DNA of 47,483 nt from Candidatus Woesebacteria bacterium GW2011_GWB1_33_22. Lineage in GTDB: Bacteria > Patescibacteriota > Microgenomatia > UBA8517. The first letter of the stretch is position 1. The number at the start of each line of letters is the position of its first letter. Made by a program: the position numbers and the translations under genes. Where the stretch lies: assembly GCA_000989765.1 (NCBI GenBank), contig LBOW01000003.1, forward strand, positions 1-47,483, in the 5' to 3' direction. The notes under the pieces are model-generated. The model was given only the letters and a program-made list of their open reading frames with translations. It did no database searches and had not been told where the DNA came from. Shown piece after piece: positions 7,462-45,361 of the stretch.

Positions 7462-7471
7462 TCACCTCCTT
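7462..7471 (-). promoter_or_regulatory. Strong Shine-Dalgarno partly made by a repeat
   Basis: AAGGAGGTGA lies six bases before the ATG at 7455. Its first half (AAGGA) is the end of the TCCTGAGCGAAGTCGAAGGA element. Confidence 0.75.
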
Positions 7472-7486
7472 CGACTTCGCTCAGGA
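7467..7486. repeat. TCCTGAGCGAAGTCGAAGGA element, trxA 3' end
   Basis: An exact copy of the dispersed 20-bp element on the minus strand. It provides the trxA stop codon (TGA at 7481-7483) and the AAGGA of the next gene's ribosome site. Confidence 0.9.
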
Positions 7487-14551: not shown

Positions 14552-16906
14552 CTACTTTTCCATTCCAAGCGAACTAAATTTAGCAAATTCAAAAAACAGG
14601 AAGGAGAATGCTACTGCCATAACAAAAGGAGCATACATTGACAAGTAATTTTTCTGGTTTGGTTTATAACCTCTAAGAAGAAGGGAATTACCAACAACAG
14701 AAACCGAACTTAGTGCCATAGCAAGACCTGCTAGTTCGGGCTTTAAAACTAGCCCCATAAACGAGAATACTCGGGCAGCTACAGGAATTCCAATTACGTT
14801 ATAAAAAAGTGCAAAGAACATGTTTTGTCTTATTTTAGAAACTGTCGATTTTGAAAGGTCTAAAGCATTAACAACGTCTCGAAGATCGTTTTTGATAATT
14901 ACTATTCCACCAGTTTCCATGGCAACATCAGTCCCACTTCCCATGGCAATTCCTAAATCAGCTTGAGCAAGCGCAGGTGCATCATTAATACCATCTCCCA
15001 CCATGGCAACATACTTTCCTAAACTTTGTAATTTTTTAACTTCTAATGCCTTATTTTGAGGTAAGACTTCAGCTAAAATGTTTGTAATACCCACCTCACC
15101 AGCTATTGCATTAGCAGTTCTTTGGTTGTCCCCCGTAATCATCCAAACATCAATTCCACGTTTTTTAAGCATTTCTACAGCTTCTTTAGAAGTTTCTTTA
15201 ACGGTGTCTGCAACTGCGATAATTCCCAATATTTCTTTTTTTGAAGAAAGTATCATGGCAGTTTTGCCTTGATCCTCAAGTCTTTCAAGTTTTCTTTCAA
15301 ATTTATCAATGTCTAAGTCTAATTTGTCGATCATTAATTTTCTATTACCCAAAAAGTAATCAGTTTTGCCAATTTTACCTTTAACCCCATGTCCTGGAAT
15401 TGCCTCAAACCCTTCGACTTCGTTCAGTATGGATTTTTCTTCCTCTGCATAGTTAACAATTGCTTCAGCTAGTGGATGTTCTGATTGCTTCTCTAAACTT
15501 GCGGCTATTGTTAATATCTCTTTTTCATATAAGTCACCTAGTTCTTCAATATCTGTAACTTCAGGTTTACCTTTAGTAACTGTTCCTGTCTTGTCAAAGA
15601 TAATAGTATTTATTTTACTTGCACTTTCTAATGGTTCCCCACCTTTAATTAATATTCCATGCTCTGCACCAGAACCAGTTCCCACCATTATTGCAGTAGG
15701 GGTTGCAAGACCTAAAGCGCAAGGGCAAGCAATAACTATTACAGCTGTAAAGGCCATTAGGGCAAAGGATAAAGTTGACCCTAAAACAAAATACCAAACG
15801 CCAAAGGTTAAAATAGCAACACCAATAACTGCAGGCACAAACCATGAAGAAATTTTGTCAGCGACAGCCTGAATTGGTGCCTTTGATCCTTGTGCATCTT
15901 CAACTAACTTAATAATCTGAGAAAGCGTAGTTTCGGACCCAATTCTGGTGGCACAGAACTCAAAACTTCCTAGTTTATTTATTGTTCCACCTATAACATT
16001 ATCGTCGACATGTTTTTCAATTGGCATACTTTCTCCTGTTATCATTGATTCATCAACTGCTGATGAACCTTTAGTAATTACGCCATCAACAGGTATTTTC
16101 TCACCCGGTCTAACTATCAAAATATCATCTTTGACAACCCGATCAATTGGTATGTCAACTTCTTGGCCATTACGTATAATGCGCGCAGTTTTGGCTTGTA
16201 ATCCCATTAATTTCTTTATGGCTTCAGATGTTCTTCCTTTTGCTTTTGCTTCCAAAAATTTACCCAAAATAACAAATGTAATAAGAAATGCTGCTGTTTC
16301 AAAATATAAATCTGGAATTTTTTCTCCCATTATCCCTATAAAAGAGTTATTCAAAGCATAATAACCTACAAAATTTACTAAACTGTAAAAATAAGCAACA
16401 GAGGTACCAATTGCAATCAAGCTATCCATATTAAATGTTTTCATGCGAAGTGCTGAGATCATACCTTTATAAAATCCTGAACCAATATAAAATTGAACTG
16501 GGGTAGCAAGAATAAATGAGATTATTCCTATGTAAGGAAATACAAAACTGCCTCCTGGTAAAAATTTAAAGAAGTCTAAAAACATAAAATAAATCATAGG
16601 AGCTGACAAGATAAAACTAATTAAAAATCTTTTCCACTGACTTTTAATCTCTTCTTCTTGTCTCACTGTCTGGTTTTTTGATAATTCTTCAGTTTCCTCT
16701 TGTGCCGAATAACCTGCACTTTCTACCGCCTTTATTAAATCACTAATTTTACTAACAGTTGAATCATATGTAATTGTTGCTTTTTCAGATGCAAAATTAA
16801 CTCGTGCTTCACTGACACCAGCTACTTTTTTAAGTTGTTTTTCAATTAAACCTGCACACGATGTACAGTGCATTCCTTTAATCTCTAGATTAATCTTTTT
16901 GCTCAT
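14552..16906 (-). CDS. copA: Copper-transporting P1B-type ATPase (second copy)
   Basis: 784 residues: an N-terminal HMA domain (GMHCTSC, Cys 14 and 17), eight helices, TGES, membrane CPC at 394-396, DKTGT (Asp 438), SEHPLAEA (475-482) and GDGINDAP, with FYNV in helix 7 and MALSS in helix 8, all of the Cu(I) class. Longer than the first copy mainly in the loop near helix 3-4 and at the C-terminus, which has an extra hydrophobic segment. Residues 491-499 (KSILNEVEG) in the nucleotide-binding domain are encoded by a dispersed repeat inserted in frame. Its start overlaps the free HMA gene by 17 bases. The two ATPases may differ in direction or rate, for example export and enzyme loading. Confidence 0.96.
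15410..15432. repeat. TCCTGAGC..GTCGAAGG element inside copA (second copy)
   Basis: The minus strand reads CCATACTGAACGAAGTCGAAGG plus G, a variant of the 20-bp element. It is in frame and adds residues SILNEVEG in the nucleotide-binding domain. Confidence 0.7.
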
Positions 16907-22216: not shown

Positions 22217-22689
22217 ATTTCTTTAATTACTTTGTCTAATATTACTTTTTCTTCGTCTGTAAAATCCTCCAGCACGTATTCTTCGCCTTTGGTCTTTAGT
22301 CTTTGGTCTTTAGTTCTTGAGTCAATACCGACGCGGACATGCCAAAAGTCTTTATTTCCCAAATTATCATAAATATCATTTAATCCATTATGAACCTTTG
22401 GTCCTTTTCCAAACTGAATTTTAAATTCTCCCAGACGAATATCTAAATCGTCATGAATAACGTACAGGTTAGAAGCTAGAACCTGGAATCTAGAAACTAG
22501 CTCCGAAACAAAACTACCTGAATCGTTCATGAATTTGTCAGACTTTTTTAAGGTCAGACCTTTATATAGATTTAGCTTTGAAGGTCTGACCTTACCAGAA
22601 GCTAAAGCATCTATCACTATATGCCCCACATTATGCCTGTTACTTTTATATTGTCCTCCTGGATTACCAAGTCCAATAATTAACTTCAT
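22192..22689 (-). CDS. pth: Peptidyl-tRNA hydrolase
   Basis: 165 residues, shorter than E. coli Pth (194). It frees peptides from stalled peptidyl-tRNA. Catalytic residues are in place: N9 (GLGNPG), H19 (RHNVG), N55 (FMNDSG), D80 (HDDLD) and the KVHNGLNDI segment (H100, N101). At least three stretches are encoded by repeats common in this window: residues about 32-48 (two AAGGTCnGACCTT palindromes), about 62-75 (TCTAGATTC-type), and about 122-135 (GACCAAAGACTAAAGACC tandem). The enzyme is essential in most bacteria, so these are presumably tolerated in surface loops. Confidence 0.94.
   Translation of the reverse strand: MKLIIGLGNPGGQYKSNRHNVGHIVIDALASGKVRPSKLNLYKGLTLKKSDKFMNDSGSFVSELVSRFQVLASNLYVIHDDLDIRLGEFKIQFGKGPKVHNGLNDIYDNLGNKDFWHVRVGIDSRTKDQRLKTKGEEYVLEDFTDEEKVILDKVIKEICKKLATL
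22287..22313. repeat. Tandem CTTTGGTCTTTAGT repeat in pth
   Basis: Two units of about 14 bp (CTTTGGTCTTTAGT then CTTTGGTCTTTAG). It encodes residues TKDQRLKTKG of Pth in a surface region. Confidence 0.7.
22468..22501. repeat. TAGAANCTAG-type repeat in pth
   Basis: GTTAGAAGCTAGAACC followed by TGGAATCTAGAAACTAGC, related to the intergenic array at 41418-41500. In frame within Pth, encoding about SELVSRFQVLASN. Confidence 0.55.
22550..22593. repeat. Two AAGGTCnGACCTT palindromes in pth
   Basis: AAGGTC-A-GACCTT (22550-22562) and AAGGTC-T-GACCTT (22581-22593) flank 18 bp of AT-rich sequence; all in frame in Pth (about residues 32-48). Confidence 0.8.
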
Positions 22690-22716: not shown

Positions 22717-22734
22717 AAGGTCTGACCTTGCAAG
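22717..22734. repeat. AAGGTCTGACCTTGCAAG repeat, intergenic
   Basis: A third copy of the palindrome between pth and the DUF4870 gene, extended by GCAAG as in the copy at 45160-45180. Confidence 0.8.
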
Positions 22735-28073: not shown

Positions 28074-28268
28074 CTATTTCTCACCTTCAACCAACGGCGC
28101 ATCAGGTCTTGGACGATGGAGGTTAAGGGGTTTTCCTGGAGGTACTATCACTCCCTGTTGTCTTCTCTTTTTCAATTTTTCAGCTGCCTCAGCGTCTGCT
28201 TTTTCAACTCTTCCCCTCCAATCTTTTTGGGCTTTATCATTCTCTATTTTCAAAAATTCTAAAGTCAT
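28074..28268 (-). CDS. Hypothetical charged protein downstream of recF
   Basis: 64 residues, highly charged helix at the N-terminal half (RVEKADAEAAEKLKKRRQQG) and a Pro-rich C-terminal half. The start shares ATGA with the recF stop, so it is cotranslated with recF. No family recognised. It is likely cytoplasmic and partly disordered. Confidence 0.65.
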   Translation of the reverse strand: MTLEFLKIENDKAQKDWRGRVEKADAEAAEKLKKRRQQGVIVPPGKPLNLHRPRPDAPLVEGEK

Positions 28269-29302
28269 AGATTTATCACTTTCATTTTTTTATCCTCCAA
28301 TCCTTGTAAATTGTGAGGATCTGCTGAGGTGATTATAACCTGATGGTTTCTTATACTGTCAAGAACTATTTTTCTATGTTCATGATCCAGTTCTGAAAAG
28401 ATATCATCGAGGAGTAAAACTGCCTGCCCTGAGCGAGAATTTTCGAGTCGAAGGGTTTCTTTATCTACAAAAGCAAGTTCTGCAAGTTTTAACCATAATA
28501 TTTCCATTCTCTGTTCACCTCTTGAGCCATAACTGGCTAAATCCCTGCCTGCCGGCAGGCTGGCCTTGTCATTTTTAAAAAAGATAAAGTCATCTCGGTG
28601 CGGACCCACAAGAGTCATTGCTGAAGCTACTTCTTCATCTCTATATTGCTCCAATCTTCCTTCACTAATTACAGAATTATCATATTTTAAATTGCATTTC
28701 TCTAGACTATTAATAAAATTAATAAGTTCTTCTCTTTTTTCTGTAACGTAATTTCCGTTTTTAATTAAAAGCTGGTTCCAAAAAAGAAGATGTAATCTTG
28801 ACAGGTTTTCTTCCCTAATACGAAATAGAAGTCTGTTTCTTTGTCTTATACCTTTCTCATATGAACCAATTGCTCTTCTATATTCCCTATCTACTTGAGA
28901 AAGTACAGTATCCAAAAACTTTCGTCTCAAAGTTGGCGTACTTGTTACTAAATCCAAATCTTCAGGAAGAAACAAAACTGTTTTTAAATTCCCTACAAAA
29001 TCAATAAGTCTTTTACCAACTTCATTAACCATTAATTTTTTCTTGGGCCATTCAGGAATATCCTTCGTTAAAACAATTTCCAAACTATCCCCCTTAATCC
29101 TTGCTAGATCTGAATCGTAATTTATTGATTCTTCTGATAGATTTGCTTTAAAACTTTTCCCGGTTGAAAGCATAAATAAGCCTTCCAAGATATTTGTTTT
29201 ACCTTTGGCATTTGGAGCATTAATTACTGTAATCCCTTCCCCAAATTCAAAGGATTTATTGGTAAAGTTTCTAAAATTAAGAAGTTGAAGATTTGAGATC
29301 AT
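28265..29302 (-). CDS. recF: DNA replication/repair protein RecF
   Basis: 345 residues. Walker A APNAKGKT (29-36), the usual RecF N-terminus with LQLLNFRNF, conserved LFLPEDLDLV (110-119), VGPHRDDF (232-239), signature region SYGSRGEQR (258-266) and Walker B VLLLDDIFSELD (295-306). RecF helps load RecA at gaps. Two repeats are in frame: residues 247-254 (ASLPAGRD, CCTGCCGGCAGG palindrome) just before the signature, and 284-293 (LRLENSRSGQ, TCCTGAGCGA..TCGAAGG element) just before Walker B. Family length is otherwise normal (slightly short). Confidence 0.95.
   Translation of the reverse strand: MISNLQLLNFRNFTNKSFEFGEGITVINAPNAKGKTNILEGLFMLSTGKSFKANLSEESINYDSDLARIKGDSLEIVLTKDIPEWPKKKLMVNEVGKRLIDFVGNLKTVLFLPEDLDLVTSTPTLRRKFLDTVLSQVDREYRRAIGSYEKGIRQRNRLLFRIREENLSRLHLLFWNQLLIKNGNYVTEKREELINFINSLEKCNLKYDNSVISEGRLEQYRDEEVASAMTLVGPHRDDFIFFKNDKASLPAGRDLASYGSRGEQRMEILWLKLAELAFVDKETLRLENSRSGQAVLLLDDIFSELDHEHRKIVLDSIRNHQVIITSADPHNLQGLEDKKMKVINL
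28427..28455. repeat. CCCTGAGCGA..GTCGAAGGG element in recF
   Basis: Reads CCCTGAGCGAGAATTTTCG plus AGTCGAAGGG on the plus strand; the core element with a 9-base central insertion. It encodes LRLENSRSGQ in RecF next to Walker B. Confidence 0.75.
28544..28563. repeat. CCTGCCGGCAGG palindrome in recF
   Basis: CCTGCCTGCC-GGCAGGCTGG, one mismatch from the perfect 20-bp palindrome at 29809-29828; in frame, encoding SLPAGR. Confidence 0.8.
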
Positions 29303-29754
29303 ACAAAGCTTAAAATACCTCTTCCCACAGCTAAAGTAAATAGTGTTGAAGGTACATTAGCTAATATTAAAATAATATATTTATACGAAAAATCTCTTAA
29401 AAGAAGCCTTATGGTAAGTGCAGAAAAGACAGGGCCACCAATTGTACCAATAATAAAAACGGCAAGTATTTTCCCATGATGAAGATATTTTTTTAATAAT
29501 TTCTTTTCTTTTTTTTCTTCCTCTTTTTCAATTTCTTTTCCAACAGGAAAAAATTTCTCATGACTTAAAATATAAAGCAAGATTAAACCAAATCCCGTTC
29601 CAAACAAATAAAGTTGTAGAAAAGATTCAACCAGATTTTGGTTTGAAAACGCATGAACCATATTAACTTTAGAGAGCAAAAAGTAACCCCCTAAAATCAA
29701 AACTGCAAATAAATGCACCCAATGAAATTTGTGTTTTTGTATTACTTTTGACAT
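29299..29754 (-). CDS. Hypothetical four-helix membrane protein
   Basis: 151 residues from the ATG at 29754 (an in-frame TTG at 29766 is weaker). Four hydrophobic segments and a Lys/Glu-rich cytoplasmic loop (EIEKEEEKKEKKLLKKYLHHG) between helices 2 and 3. It overlaps the end of the Fpg gene by 13 bases and the recF start by four, so it is part of an Fpg-recF transcript. No family recognised. Confidence 0.72.
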   Translation of the reverse strand: MSKVIQKHKFHWVHLFAVLILGGYFLLSKVNMVHAFSNQNLVESFLQLYLFGTGFGLILLYILSHEKFFPVGKEIEKEEEKKEKKLLKKYLHHGKILAVFIIGTIGGPVFSALTIRLLLRDFSYKYIILILANVPSTLFTLAVGRGILSFV

Positions 29755-30596
29755 ATCTTGCACCAATAAGTCCCCCTACCTCCTAAGAAGAATTTCTCAA
29801 TTTTGGCACCTGCCTGCCGGCAGGCAGGATTTTGGCAAGACTTATTCTGCCTACCATATATTAAAGTGTGGTTTTGATATTCCCCTTCTTTTCCATCTGG
29901 GGTAACAAAAGCAAGCTCTGATGCCCCACCATACTTTAAGCCGGCTTGTAAGACAGTGTTTAAGGCGTTGAAGATTAATTTTATTTCCTCAGTACTCAAG
30001 GTTTTAGAGGCTCTCTTTGGGTTTATTTTAGAGAGCCAAAGAGCATCGTTTACATAGATGTTTCCCACACCTCCAATTTTCGTCTGATCCATTAAGTGAA
30101 CCTTTATGTTTCTTGATGATTTTAAAACTATTTTTTCAAAATCTTTTAAACTCAAAACTAGCATGTCCGGGCCTAATTTTTTAATAAAACTTTCATTCTC
30201 TACATCTATTGTCTTTTCAATTCTGATCCAGCCAAACCTTCTAACGTCGTTGTAGTAAAGTACTCCACCTCTATCTAAGTTAAAAATAACCAATGTGTGT
30301 GGTCCATTAAGGCCTCCTGTTACTTTATTTGAAAGAGATTCTGTTTTTAAATTTGGACCTCTATATATAAACTGTCCTGTTAATTTTACGTGGGTTAATA
30401 TGGAATATTTGTTATCAAGGTCTATTACTGTTACTTTCCCAAACCTTCTAGTGCCAAGTACTTTAGCATTAATTATTTTGTTCTCATCACCTTGAAAAAC
30501 TCTACGATTTTTAACTTCTACGTAGACAATTTTATGACCAACAAGAAATTTCCCTAGCTGTAATTTTATTGTTTCAACTTCTGGTAGTTCTGGCAT
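29742..30596 (-). CDS. mutM: Formamidopyrimidine-DNA glycosylase
   Basis: 284 residues. It removes oxidised purines and cuts the abasic site. N-terminal PELPEVET provides the catalytic Pro 2 and Glu 3; Lys near 65-72 (HVKLTGQF) is present; the helix-two-turn-helix has DQTKIGGVGNIYVNDAL (170-186); and the zinc finger is at the C-terminus. The zinc finger is altered: Cys 254 and Cys 259 (SCQNPACRQAG) are four residues apart, not two, and the second is encoded by the perfect 20-bp palindrome at 29809-29828. The second pair, Cys 279/282, is normal (YWCKICQK). It may still bind zinc or be weakened. Confidence 0.95.
   Translation of the reverse strand: MPELPEVETIKLQLGKFLVGHKIVYVEVKNRRVFQGDENKIINAKVLGTRRFGKVTVIDLDNKYSILTHVKLTGQFIYRGPNLKTESLSNKVTGGLNGPHTLVIFNLDRGGVLYYNDVRRFGWIRIEKTIDVENESFIKKLGPDMLVLSLKDFEKIVLKSSRNIKVHLMDQTKIGGVGNIYVNDALWLSKINPKRASKTLSTEEIKLIFNALNTVLQAGLKYGGASELAFVTPDGKEGEYQNHTLIYGRQNKSCQNPACRQAGAKIEKFFLGGRGTYWCKICQK
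29809..29828. repeat. Perfect 20-bp palindrome CCTGCCTGCCGGCAGGCAGG in Fpg gene
   Basis: A perfect inverted repeat in frame with Fpg, encoding residues PACRQAG (257-263) on the minus strand. Related copies lie at 28544-28563 and 43415-43432. Confidence 0.95.
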
Positions 30597-31969: not shown

Positions 31970-32920
31970 TCAAAAAAGTGATCCTTGTTTTTCGTCTTCT
32001 ATTTTTTTAGCCAATGCTTTTATTCTAGCAGTTAAGGTTTTAAAACCATATTTTTCAAAAAGTTTTAAAACTTTTTCTGAAACCAAATTCCAATTGTTAG
32101 AATTTTCTATATTAAATTTAACTGGGACATTCCTAACAATCGTTGCAAGTTTGTATGATAAATTCGCCGATTCTTTGCCTTCAATTAATTTAGATCTTAA
32201 CTTCTCTGAAATCTCACTTATATGTTCATATATATTACTTAGAGTCTTATATTTGGCTAAAAGACCAATAGCAGTTTTTGGACCAATTCCAGCAATTCCA
32301 AAATAGTTATCAGATGGATCTCCCACCAAGCCTTTATAATCAGCTATCTGATTTGGAGCTACCCCCATTCTTTCAACAGTCTCTTTTTCTGTAAAAATTT
32401 TGCCATTTGCGAGTCCTCCAATTGGCATAAAAAGTTTAATATTTTTCTCATCATCAACAAGTTGTAATATATCTCTATCCCCTGTAACTACAACTACCTC
32501 GTCTATGGCTGATGGTCTACGGTCTACGGTTTTATTCTTGCTGTAGTCTGTAGACTGTAAGCTATCAGCAATAGTACCAATAACATCATCTGCTTCGAAT
32601 CCAGACTTTGAATAGTTTTGAATTCGCGCGGCGCGTAAAAAGTCCTTTGCTTTAAAAAACTGTGGTATCAAATCAGATGAAGTTTCTGGCCTTTGGGATT
32701 GGTAAGTAAGTAGAAGTTTGCTCCTGAAGGTCGGCTCTTTCTCATCAAAACAAAAAATAATGTGAGTCGGTTTAAGGTTTTCAACAACATTTAAAAGCAT
32801 TGAAACAAGGCCGTAGACAGCATTTATTGGTTCGCCTTTCTTGGTAGTTAAGGGAGGCAATGCATGAAAAGCCCTGTGCATCAGTGCATTCCCATCAAAA
32901 ATAACCAGTTTGCTTTGCAT
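31970..32920 (-). CDS. Stand-alone 5'-3' exonuclease (PolA N-terminal type)
   Basis: 316 residues equal to the 5' nuclease domain of DNA polymerase I, without polymerase. Metal-binding acidic residues: D9 (IFDGNALMHR), FCFDE (57-60), FEADD (108-112), TGDRD (146-150) and GLVGDPSDNYFGIAGIGPKTA, the helix-hairpin-helix region. It removes RNA primers or flaps. Residues 119-141 (DSLQSTDYSKNKTVDRRPSAIDE) between the third and fourth acidic clusters are repeat-encoded and longer than usual. Whether polymerase I is encoded elsewhere is not known. Confidence 0.92.
   Translation of the reverse strand: MQSKLVIFDGNALMHRAFHALPPLTTKKGEPINAVYGLVSMLLNVVENLKPTHIIFCFDEKEPTFRSKLLLTYQSQRPETSSDLIPQFFKAKDFLRAARIQNYSKSGFEADDVIGTIADSLQSTDYSKNKTVDRRPSAIDEVVVVTGDRDILQLVDDEKNIKLFMPIGGLANGKIFTEKETVERMGVAPNQIADYKGLVGDPSDNYFGIAGIGPKTAIGLLAKYKTLSNIYEHISEISEKLRSKLIEGKESANLSYKLATIVRNVPVKFNIENSNNWNLVSEKVLKLFEKYGFKTLTARIKALAKKIEDEKQGSLF
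32501..32569. repeat. GTCTACGGTCTACGG / TGTAGTCTGTAGACTGTAAG tandem repeats in exonuclease
   Basis: Two neighbouring stretches, 32501-32529 and 32541-32569, built on a GTCTAC/GTAGAC 10- to 11-base unit. Related to 44980-45007. In frame within the exonuclease. Confidence 0.7.
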
Positions 32921-44875: not shown

Positions 44876-45361
44876 CTACATCTTCCATACTTCTTCTTTT
44901 ATTTTTTTCTTGAAATTTGTGAAGCGGGCGAGAGTAAAAAGATAATCACTGAGACGATTGAGGTACGGCAAGATCTTTGCTGTAGACTGTAGACTGTAAG
45001 CAATAAGCGTTCTTTCAGCTCGACGGCAAAGAGCGCGGGCATAGTACAGCTTCACAGCTCTTGAAGTTCCTGAGTAAATAATAAAGTTGGCAAGAACTGG
45101 CATTTTTTTCTCCATCGTATCAATTTCTTTTTCGAGTTTTTTTGTCGCGTCCTTTGGCATTGCAAGGTCAGACCTTGCAAGTATGGCGTTTATTATAAAA
45201 AGATTTCTTTGAATTTCTTGAAGTTCCCCTATTATTCCTAAATATGAATTTAGTTCATCAATTGCTCCAATAGTATTAATTAGTTTTGAAGATTTTGAAA
45301 CTCTTTTTCCACTAAACGTCCCCGTCATCCCCTTATCCCCTGTTTTTGTATAAACACTCAT
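44876..45361 (-). CDS. ATP:cob(I)alamin adenosyltransferase, PduO type
   Basis: 161 residues. N-terminal TKTGDKGMTGTFSG (5-18) with the ATP-binding motif, GAIDELNSYLG (32-42), RAERTLIAY (114-122) and NRLSDYLFTLAR (135-146) are all standard for PduO-type enzymes. It makes adenosylcobalamin, the cofactor of the ribonucleotide reductase gene directly upstream (TAA and ATG are adjacent). Residues about 60-68 (ILARSDLAM) and 121-130 (AYSLQSTAKI) are encoded by two repeat types. Somewhat shorter than typical (about 180). Confidence 0.93.
   Translation of the reverse strand: MSVYTKTGDKGMTGTFSGKRVSKSSKLINTIGAIDELNSYLGIIGELQEIQRNLFIINAILARSDLAMPKDATKKLEKEIDTMEKKMPVLANFIIYSGTSRAVKLYYARALCRRAERTLIAYSLQSTAKILPYLNRLSDYLFTLARFTNFKKKIKEEVWKM
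44980..45007. repeat. CTGTAGACTGTAGACTGTAAGC tandem repeat in adenosyltransferase
   Basis: A TGTAGAC unit repeated with flank TGTAAGC, same kind as in the exonuclease gene (32541-32569). In frame. Confidence 0.7.
45160..45180. repeat. Perfect 21-bp palindrome in adenosyltransferase
   Basis: Arms TTGCAAGGTC and GACCTTGCAA around a central A. The longest copy of the AAGGTCnGACCTT family. In frame, encoding about LARSDLA. Confidence 0.85.

Follow-up and report, generated by a model that had tools for sequence, protein, structure and literature searches.

A dispersed 20-bp palindromic repeat as the probable source of a zinc-ligand cysteine in the DNA repair enzyme Fpg

Intragenic palindromic repeats are usually seen as neutral passengers, and a 2007 review stated that an insert improving enzyme function had not yet been shown (PMC2229807). 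In Candidatus Woesebacteria bacterium GW2011_GWB1_33_22, a perfect 20-base palindrome lies inside the open reading frame of fpg, in the zinc finger of the encoded DNA glycosylase, which raises the question of whether the repeat is tolerated there or provides one of the four zinc ligands. The window analysed here is the whole stretch of 47,483 nucleotides from contig LBOW01000003.1 of this genome (G000). Because simple assays exist for Fpg, exaptation versus tolerance is directly testable at this locus.

A palindrome in the zinc finger of Fpg

The following features of the fpg locus were annotated.

29742..30596, minus strand: fpg/mutM, formamidopyrimidine-DNA glycosylase, 284 aa, with the insert (Pfam, phmmer, AF2 model)
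29809..29828, no strand assigned: palindromic repeat, perfect copy, encoding PACRQAG, Fpg residues 257-263 (sequence; 12 copies in the genome)
29835..29837, minus strand: codon of Cys254, native first zinc ligand (invariant in sets of 27 and 51 sequences)
29820..29822, minus strand: codon of Cys259, from the element, in the second zinc-ligand position (sequence; alignment A1)
29760..29762, minus strand: codon of Cys279, third zinc ligand (invariant in the 27- and 51-sequence sets)
29751..29753, minus strand: codon of Cys282, fourth zinc ligand (nearly invariant in 27 sequences; Cys or His in 51)
29806..29808, minus strand: TGC immediately following the element, probably what was the native codon for the second Cys; it is out of frame, read GGT GCC = Gly-Ala (TGY follows the element in 4/5 carriers)
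29800..29837, plus strand: 9-bp direct repeat ATTTTGGCA flanking the element (29800-29808 and 29829-29837)

The palindrome CCTGCCTGCCGGCAGGCAGG has two matches with at most three mismatches in the window, against 0 expected from 100 window shuffles. Its minus strand reads CCT GCC TGC CGG CAG GCA GG(T), that is, P A C R Q A G, and the resulting finger comprises Cys254-x4-Cys259 and Cys279-x2-Cys282. The original prediction, which had described a palindrome coding PACRQAG and placed Cys259 at the second zinc Cys with x4 spacing beside a normal second pair, was borne out on each of these points.

The product matched the Pfam families Fapy_DNA_glyco (78 bits) and H2TH (75.5 bits), and its best phmmer match among solved Fpg structures was 1tdz (5.7e-40). 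It shares with Fpg/MutM glycosylases the fold, the catalytic domain with the N-terminal PELPEVE, the H2TH domain, the finger arginine and three of the four native Cys residues, but differs from them in having C-x4-C instead of C-x2-C as the first pair. Catalytic residues and the remaining zinc ligands were conserved in the alignment. Arg274, equivalent to the finger residue Arg260 of LlFpg that contacts DNA (PMC4176347), was invariant.

A single-sequence scan returned no viral relatives of Fpg, and an alignment-based scan returned seven, which were included for the AF2 model. The model (pLDDT 86.1) aligned to MutM 1r2y over residues 2-284 (Z 33.4, 2.2 A, 265 residues). Its pLDDT was 92-94 across residues 251-270, and the PACRQ part of the insert formed a short helix at residues 257-261. 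Against zf-FPG_IleRS (PF06827), whose pattern consists of two C-x2-C pairs, the four-Cys window finger with its C-x4-C pair scored 13.0 bits, below the cut-off of 21.3, and the empty finger of the same-genus relative G001 scored 27.3 bits; this drop shows only the unusual spacing. The window fpg (29742-30596) also has a mosaic look, residues 240-284 being 85% identical to G001 and residues 1-240 being nearer to other genera (53-60% identity to G001).

The palindrome is a dispersed and translated repeat

Twelve copies of the element, with at most three mismatches, were counted in genome G000 (860 kb). Most are located inside ORFs and in frame, including those of TypA, EF-G, PheS, RecG, RecF and a MurD-like fusion, among others, and the usual peptide is LPAGRQ. 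The original prediction had recognised a real repeat in fpg and overlooked this genome-wide spread, with in-frame copies in many genes, usually without Cys. The second copy of the window lies in a recF-like gene.

28265..29302, minus strand: recF-like gene with the window's second copy (Pfam SMC_N, 51.7 bits)
28544..28563, no strand assigned: second copy of the element, one mismatch, in recF, read ASLPAGR, +21 bp net relative to the empty G001 gene (sequence, comparison)

Compared with the empty G001 orthologues, the net gain was +21 bp in PheS, RecF, the MurD-like gene and one more, +15 bp in TypA, and +12 bp in RecG and EF-G. This gain was always a multiple of three, indicating that the element is translated and that the frame is kept. 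A copy in a glycosyltransferase-like gene is common to G000 and G001 and therefore predates their split. The TypA copy is located in stretch L002, and the EF-G copy (L009, 1501-1520; G000 C5) lies in the G domain, shortly upstream of the RINLIDTPGH motif.

Among the relatives, 62 of 142 genomes carried the element, with 327 copies in total; as many as 96 copies occur in a single genome (G240). The exact 20 bases were also found in contigs named Parcubacteria, WWE3, Omnitrophota, Bacteroidetes, Elusimicrobia, Nitrospirae and Planctomycetes, and in 33 stretches of viral contigs. A literature search by the element's peptides and core DNA yielded no report of it, the matches being unrelated peptides. 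The element is a very short repeat with no known mover that occurs widely in Patescibacteria and in several further phyla and lies in frame in essential genes. G105 and G120 contain intergenic regions (L062, L351-L364) with a mosaic structure of numerous short repeats, including the palindrome. These two genomes were considered as a clean empty-site pair and rejected, the copies being embedded in such mosaics.

These results bear on whether fpg contains an insert at all, since PACRQAG could be a chance or ordinary variant of Fpg, or the palindrome could be bypassed or removed before or during translation. The element RNA is predicted to form a stable 8-bp hairpin (-13.9 kcal/mol), which speaks for bypass or removal; however, a bypass of exactly 20 bases would break the frame, the net gain being a multiple of three. 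A chance origin of the palindrome in fpg is refuted by the shuffles, by the 12 genome copies, and by the presence of these 20 bases in genes and phyla unrelated to one another. We regard chance, an ordinary variant and bypass or removal together as scarcely credible.

Recurrence at one codon of fpg

The Fpg comparison covered 51 sequences, five of which carry the element (G000 CQNPACRQAGAKIEKF, G017 CPRPACRQIGVKFTKYF, G148 CKRPACRQAGVKIEKF, G130 CRRPACRQAGGGIIHRL and G552 CLRPACRQAGVIIKKA) and 46 of which are empty. In G017, G148, G130 and G552, the element occupies the same codon and frame as in G000, and no copy was found at any other position in the sampled Fpg proteins. Three families are represented among the carriers, one of which belongs to a different class from that of the window. 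All five carriers have C-x4-C, versus 0/46 empty Fpg, in which the second position is C-x2-C in 36, C-x3-C in two and without Cys in eight. The spacing suspected to come from the repeat is thus shared by no repeat-free homolog in this sample, and the earlier idea of an insert agrees with the empty site of G001, the closest relative lacking the element, which reads CQTCGTKIEKF with C-x2-C. Across the 51 sequences, the first and third Cys are invariant and the fourth ligand is Cys or His, the second being the labile one.

In an Fpg tree built without the finger columns, five changes were needed to explain the distribution of the element, at least four of them forced by well supported (starred) branches. 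G552 is on a long branch that makes its exact position uncertain, though it is distant wherever it belongs. On these sequence comparisons, the insertions look independent in five lineages. A single origin, with fpg or its 3' end then passed on horizontally, would also place one element in several lineages, and the mosaic window fpg (residues 240-284 being 85% identical to G001) suggests that recombination in fpg may occur. Both flanks of the element nevertheless resemble each carrier's own relatives (G000 and G001, G017 and G019, G148 and G130 and their own family), and the tree still needs five changes; any transferred piece would need to have been only a few tens of bases long. Transfer is accordingly judged improbable, and repeated insertion is the reading followed below.

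Several f15 Fpg lack the second Cys (L338, L339, L341, L333 and L335, with CLRDDGG, CHRGDG, CLRNDGG, CLREDGG and CKRGDGG), and f19-family Fpg (L037, L299 and L293) have a C-D-C-H type finger in place of four Cys.

Junctions, frame and the origin of Cys259

In all five carriers, exactly nine bases separate the beginning of the first Cys codon from that of the element. The three bases on its 3' side are TGC, TGT, TGT and TGT in four carriers and TGG in G130; the probability of TGY in 4/5 carriers by chance is 4.6e-6 (1/32 each). TGY is apparently the native second Cys codon, kept but out of frame. The out-of-frame reading, GGT GYN, would close the insert with Gly-Ala or Gly-Val, and approximately 5-8 bases would have been lost further downstream. 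The original proposal that the insert replaced the native CG holds as a net description, but the element precedes the native Cys site, and the TGC at 29806-29808 persists out of frame. From the junctions, the native codon seems to have been shifted out of frame with loss of a few downstream bases, rather than cleanly swapped. The 9-bp repeat ATTTTGGCA was considered as a target-site duplication, but it was seen only at the window fpg copy and at none of the other carriers, and so does not establish one.

The frame is also unusual. PACRQAG was read in 5/5 Fpg versus 3/26 other gene copies (Fisher 3.3e-4), the 26 well-placed copies, counted after dropping two Fpg rows and one duplicate, being read as LPAGRQ (20), PACRQAG (3) or CLPAGR (3). 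A look for further zinc sites of this kind gave none: the exact C-x2-[PACRQAG] places examined outside G000 were in a long ORF only when they belonged to fpg. For four hits at one codon in the 373-genome class sample, random insertion over tolerant codons gives a rough, assumption-dependent expectation of 1e-7 to 0.07 such codons.

We consider it probable that a dispersed, RPE-like repeat was inserted before the codon of the second ligand and that the element's own TGC (Cys259) became the ligand. The element would insert into intergenic DNA and, where the frame survives, into protein genes. In fpg, it would have landed immediately ahead of the codon for the second zinc-binding Cys and shifted that codon out of frame, the loss of a few downstream bases keeping the rest of Fpg in frame. 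Cys259 would then have taken over as ligand, giving a C-x4-C / C-x2-C finger. If survival was confined to insertions in which the element's TGC preserved a finger with four ligands, the five lineages would be expected to share one spacing from the first Cys and one frame that is rare elsewhere, and the fixed left junction agrees with selection for a Cys at a constant spacing from the first. From these patterns we infer that Cys259 binds zinc, that the enzyme is active, that the element is mobile and that selection caused the recurrence.

Alternatively, the site could be an insertion hotspot without benefit, a permissive loop or attracting DNA in which the Cys is a by-product and the finger, zincless or weakened, is tolerated. 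The second ligand is indeed the most labile (lost in 8/46 and with x3 spacing in two, ligands 1 and 3 being invariant), and zincless fingers of the NEIL1 type exist (PMC9266487). Moreover, if one DNA site were always struck, one frame would follow automatically and frame and site would not be independent, so selection and a DNA hotspot remain mixed in these data. Evidence against such a hotspot comes from the single element site in the sampled Fpg proteins, from the flanks of other element copies, in which no common target sequence was seen, and from E. coli Fpg, in which Cys-to-Gly/Ala/Ser/His changes in the finger are stated to abolish DNA binding (PMC4176347). We regard it as rather unlikely, though less so than transfer.

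The proposed recruitment of Cys259 has a parallel in the designed variant LlFpg C248GH (PDB 4pd2), in which this ligand was changed and one residue added; the protein folded with its finger structure retained, was crystallised and complemented an E. coli fpg- mutator (PMC4176347). The second ligand position thus tolerates altered spacing. The two cases are alike in a changed second ligand, a lengthened loop and, for the LlFpg variant, retained function, but LlFpg C248GH was designed and has a His ligand and one extra residue, whereas the window Fpg has a natural insert, five net residues and a Cys. Given the recurrence in five lineages with the same frame and spacing, a working finger is more likely than a weakened one. 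As counterpoints, the window finger falls below the PF06827 cut-off, and the absence of the second Cys from 8/46 empty Fpg means that the ligand may be dispensable there.

In G165, the sister of G130, the second Cys is missing (CLREDGG). G130 may therefore have had no native Cys for the element to replace, and the element may have restored a lost ligand in that lineage. More tentatively, the 20-bp palindrome might be a portable donor of a metal-ligand Cys, reused convergently in Fpg and perhaps restoring the lost Cys in the G130 lineage. The repeat appears to have supplied a structural metal ligand on several independent occasions to a repair enzyme of known structure, and DNA resembling junk may have been put to new use as a functional part.

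Relation to known repeats and candidate movers

Rickettsia palindromic elements (RPEs) are 105-146 bp long and known from Rickettsia, and in the one tested case, an insert in gmk, the protein stays active (PMC2229807). The present element resembles them as a dispersed palindromic repeat that occurs both between genes and, in frame, within conserved protein genes whose orthologues in relatives are empty. It differs from RPEs proper in its length of 20 bp, in its presence in many Patescibacteria and other phyla, and in giving a likely ligand residue at the same Fpg site in several lineages.

REP/RAYT and TIRYT/TIR systems likewise comprise short, high-copy palindromes, some of which lie in genes, including repair genes (PMC3733652). 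Unlike REP/RAYT, the 20-bp core has no GTAG or CGTC tag beside it, and neither a shared target sequence nor such a tag was found in the flanks of the 12 G000 copies. Y1-type transposases were detected in 92/142 genomes, with six in G000, and presence of the element was weakly associated with Y1_Tnp (p 0.05), 16 genomes having the element and no Y1_Tnp match. The element was absent from all 20 stretches examined beside Y1_Tnp genes, including the six of G000, where the palindromes beside several genes are of other types (e.g., TGCAAGGTCTGACCTTGCA). On the stretches examined, Y1/RAYT transposases are an unlikely mover. An uptake-sequence function also appears unlikely, as 12 copies in 860 kb would be too few.

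Other repeats

A second palindrome family, AAGGTCWGACCTT, has four exact copies in the window (22550-22562, 22581-22593, 22717-22729 and 45164-45176; 0.05 expected), and a palindrome of this type flanks a Y1 transposase gene of G000 (L253, 1343-2083). Repeats of TCGACTTCGCTCAG are located at 7471-7484 and 15414-15427 (exact and with one mismatch), and inserts of the SAQGKP, NTRSGQA and PSTSSALRG types in the Fpg of relatives are possibly related to them. Besides its palindrome, the window recF seems to contain a further insert, CCTTCGACTCGAAAATTCTCGCTCAGGGCAGGCAG (LRLENSRSGQA), at about 28415-28455. Additionally, the repeat CTGTAGACTGTAAGC, at 32541-32562 and 44980-45001, has seven window matches with at most three mismatches, compared with 0.66 expected.
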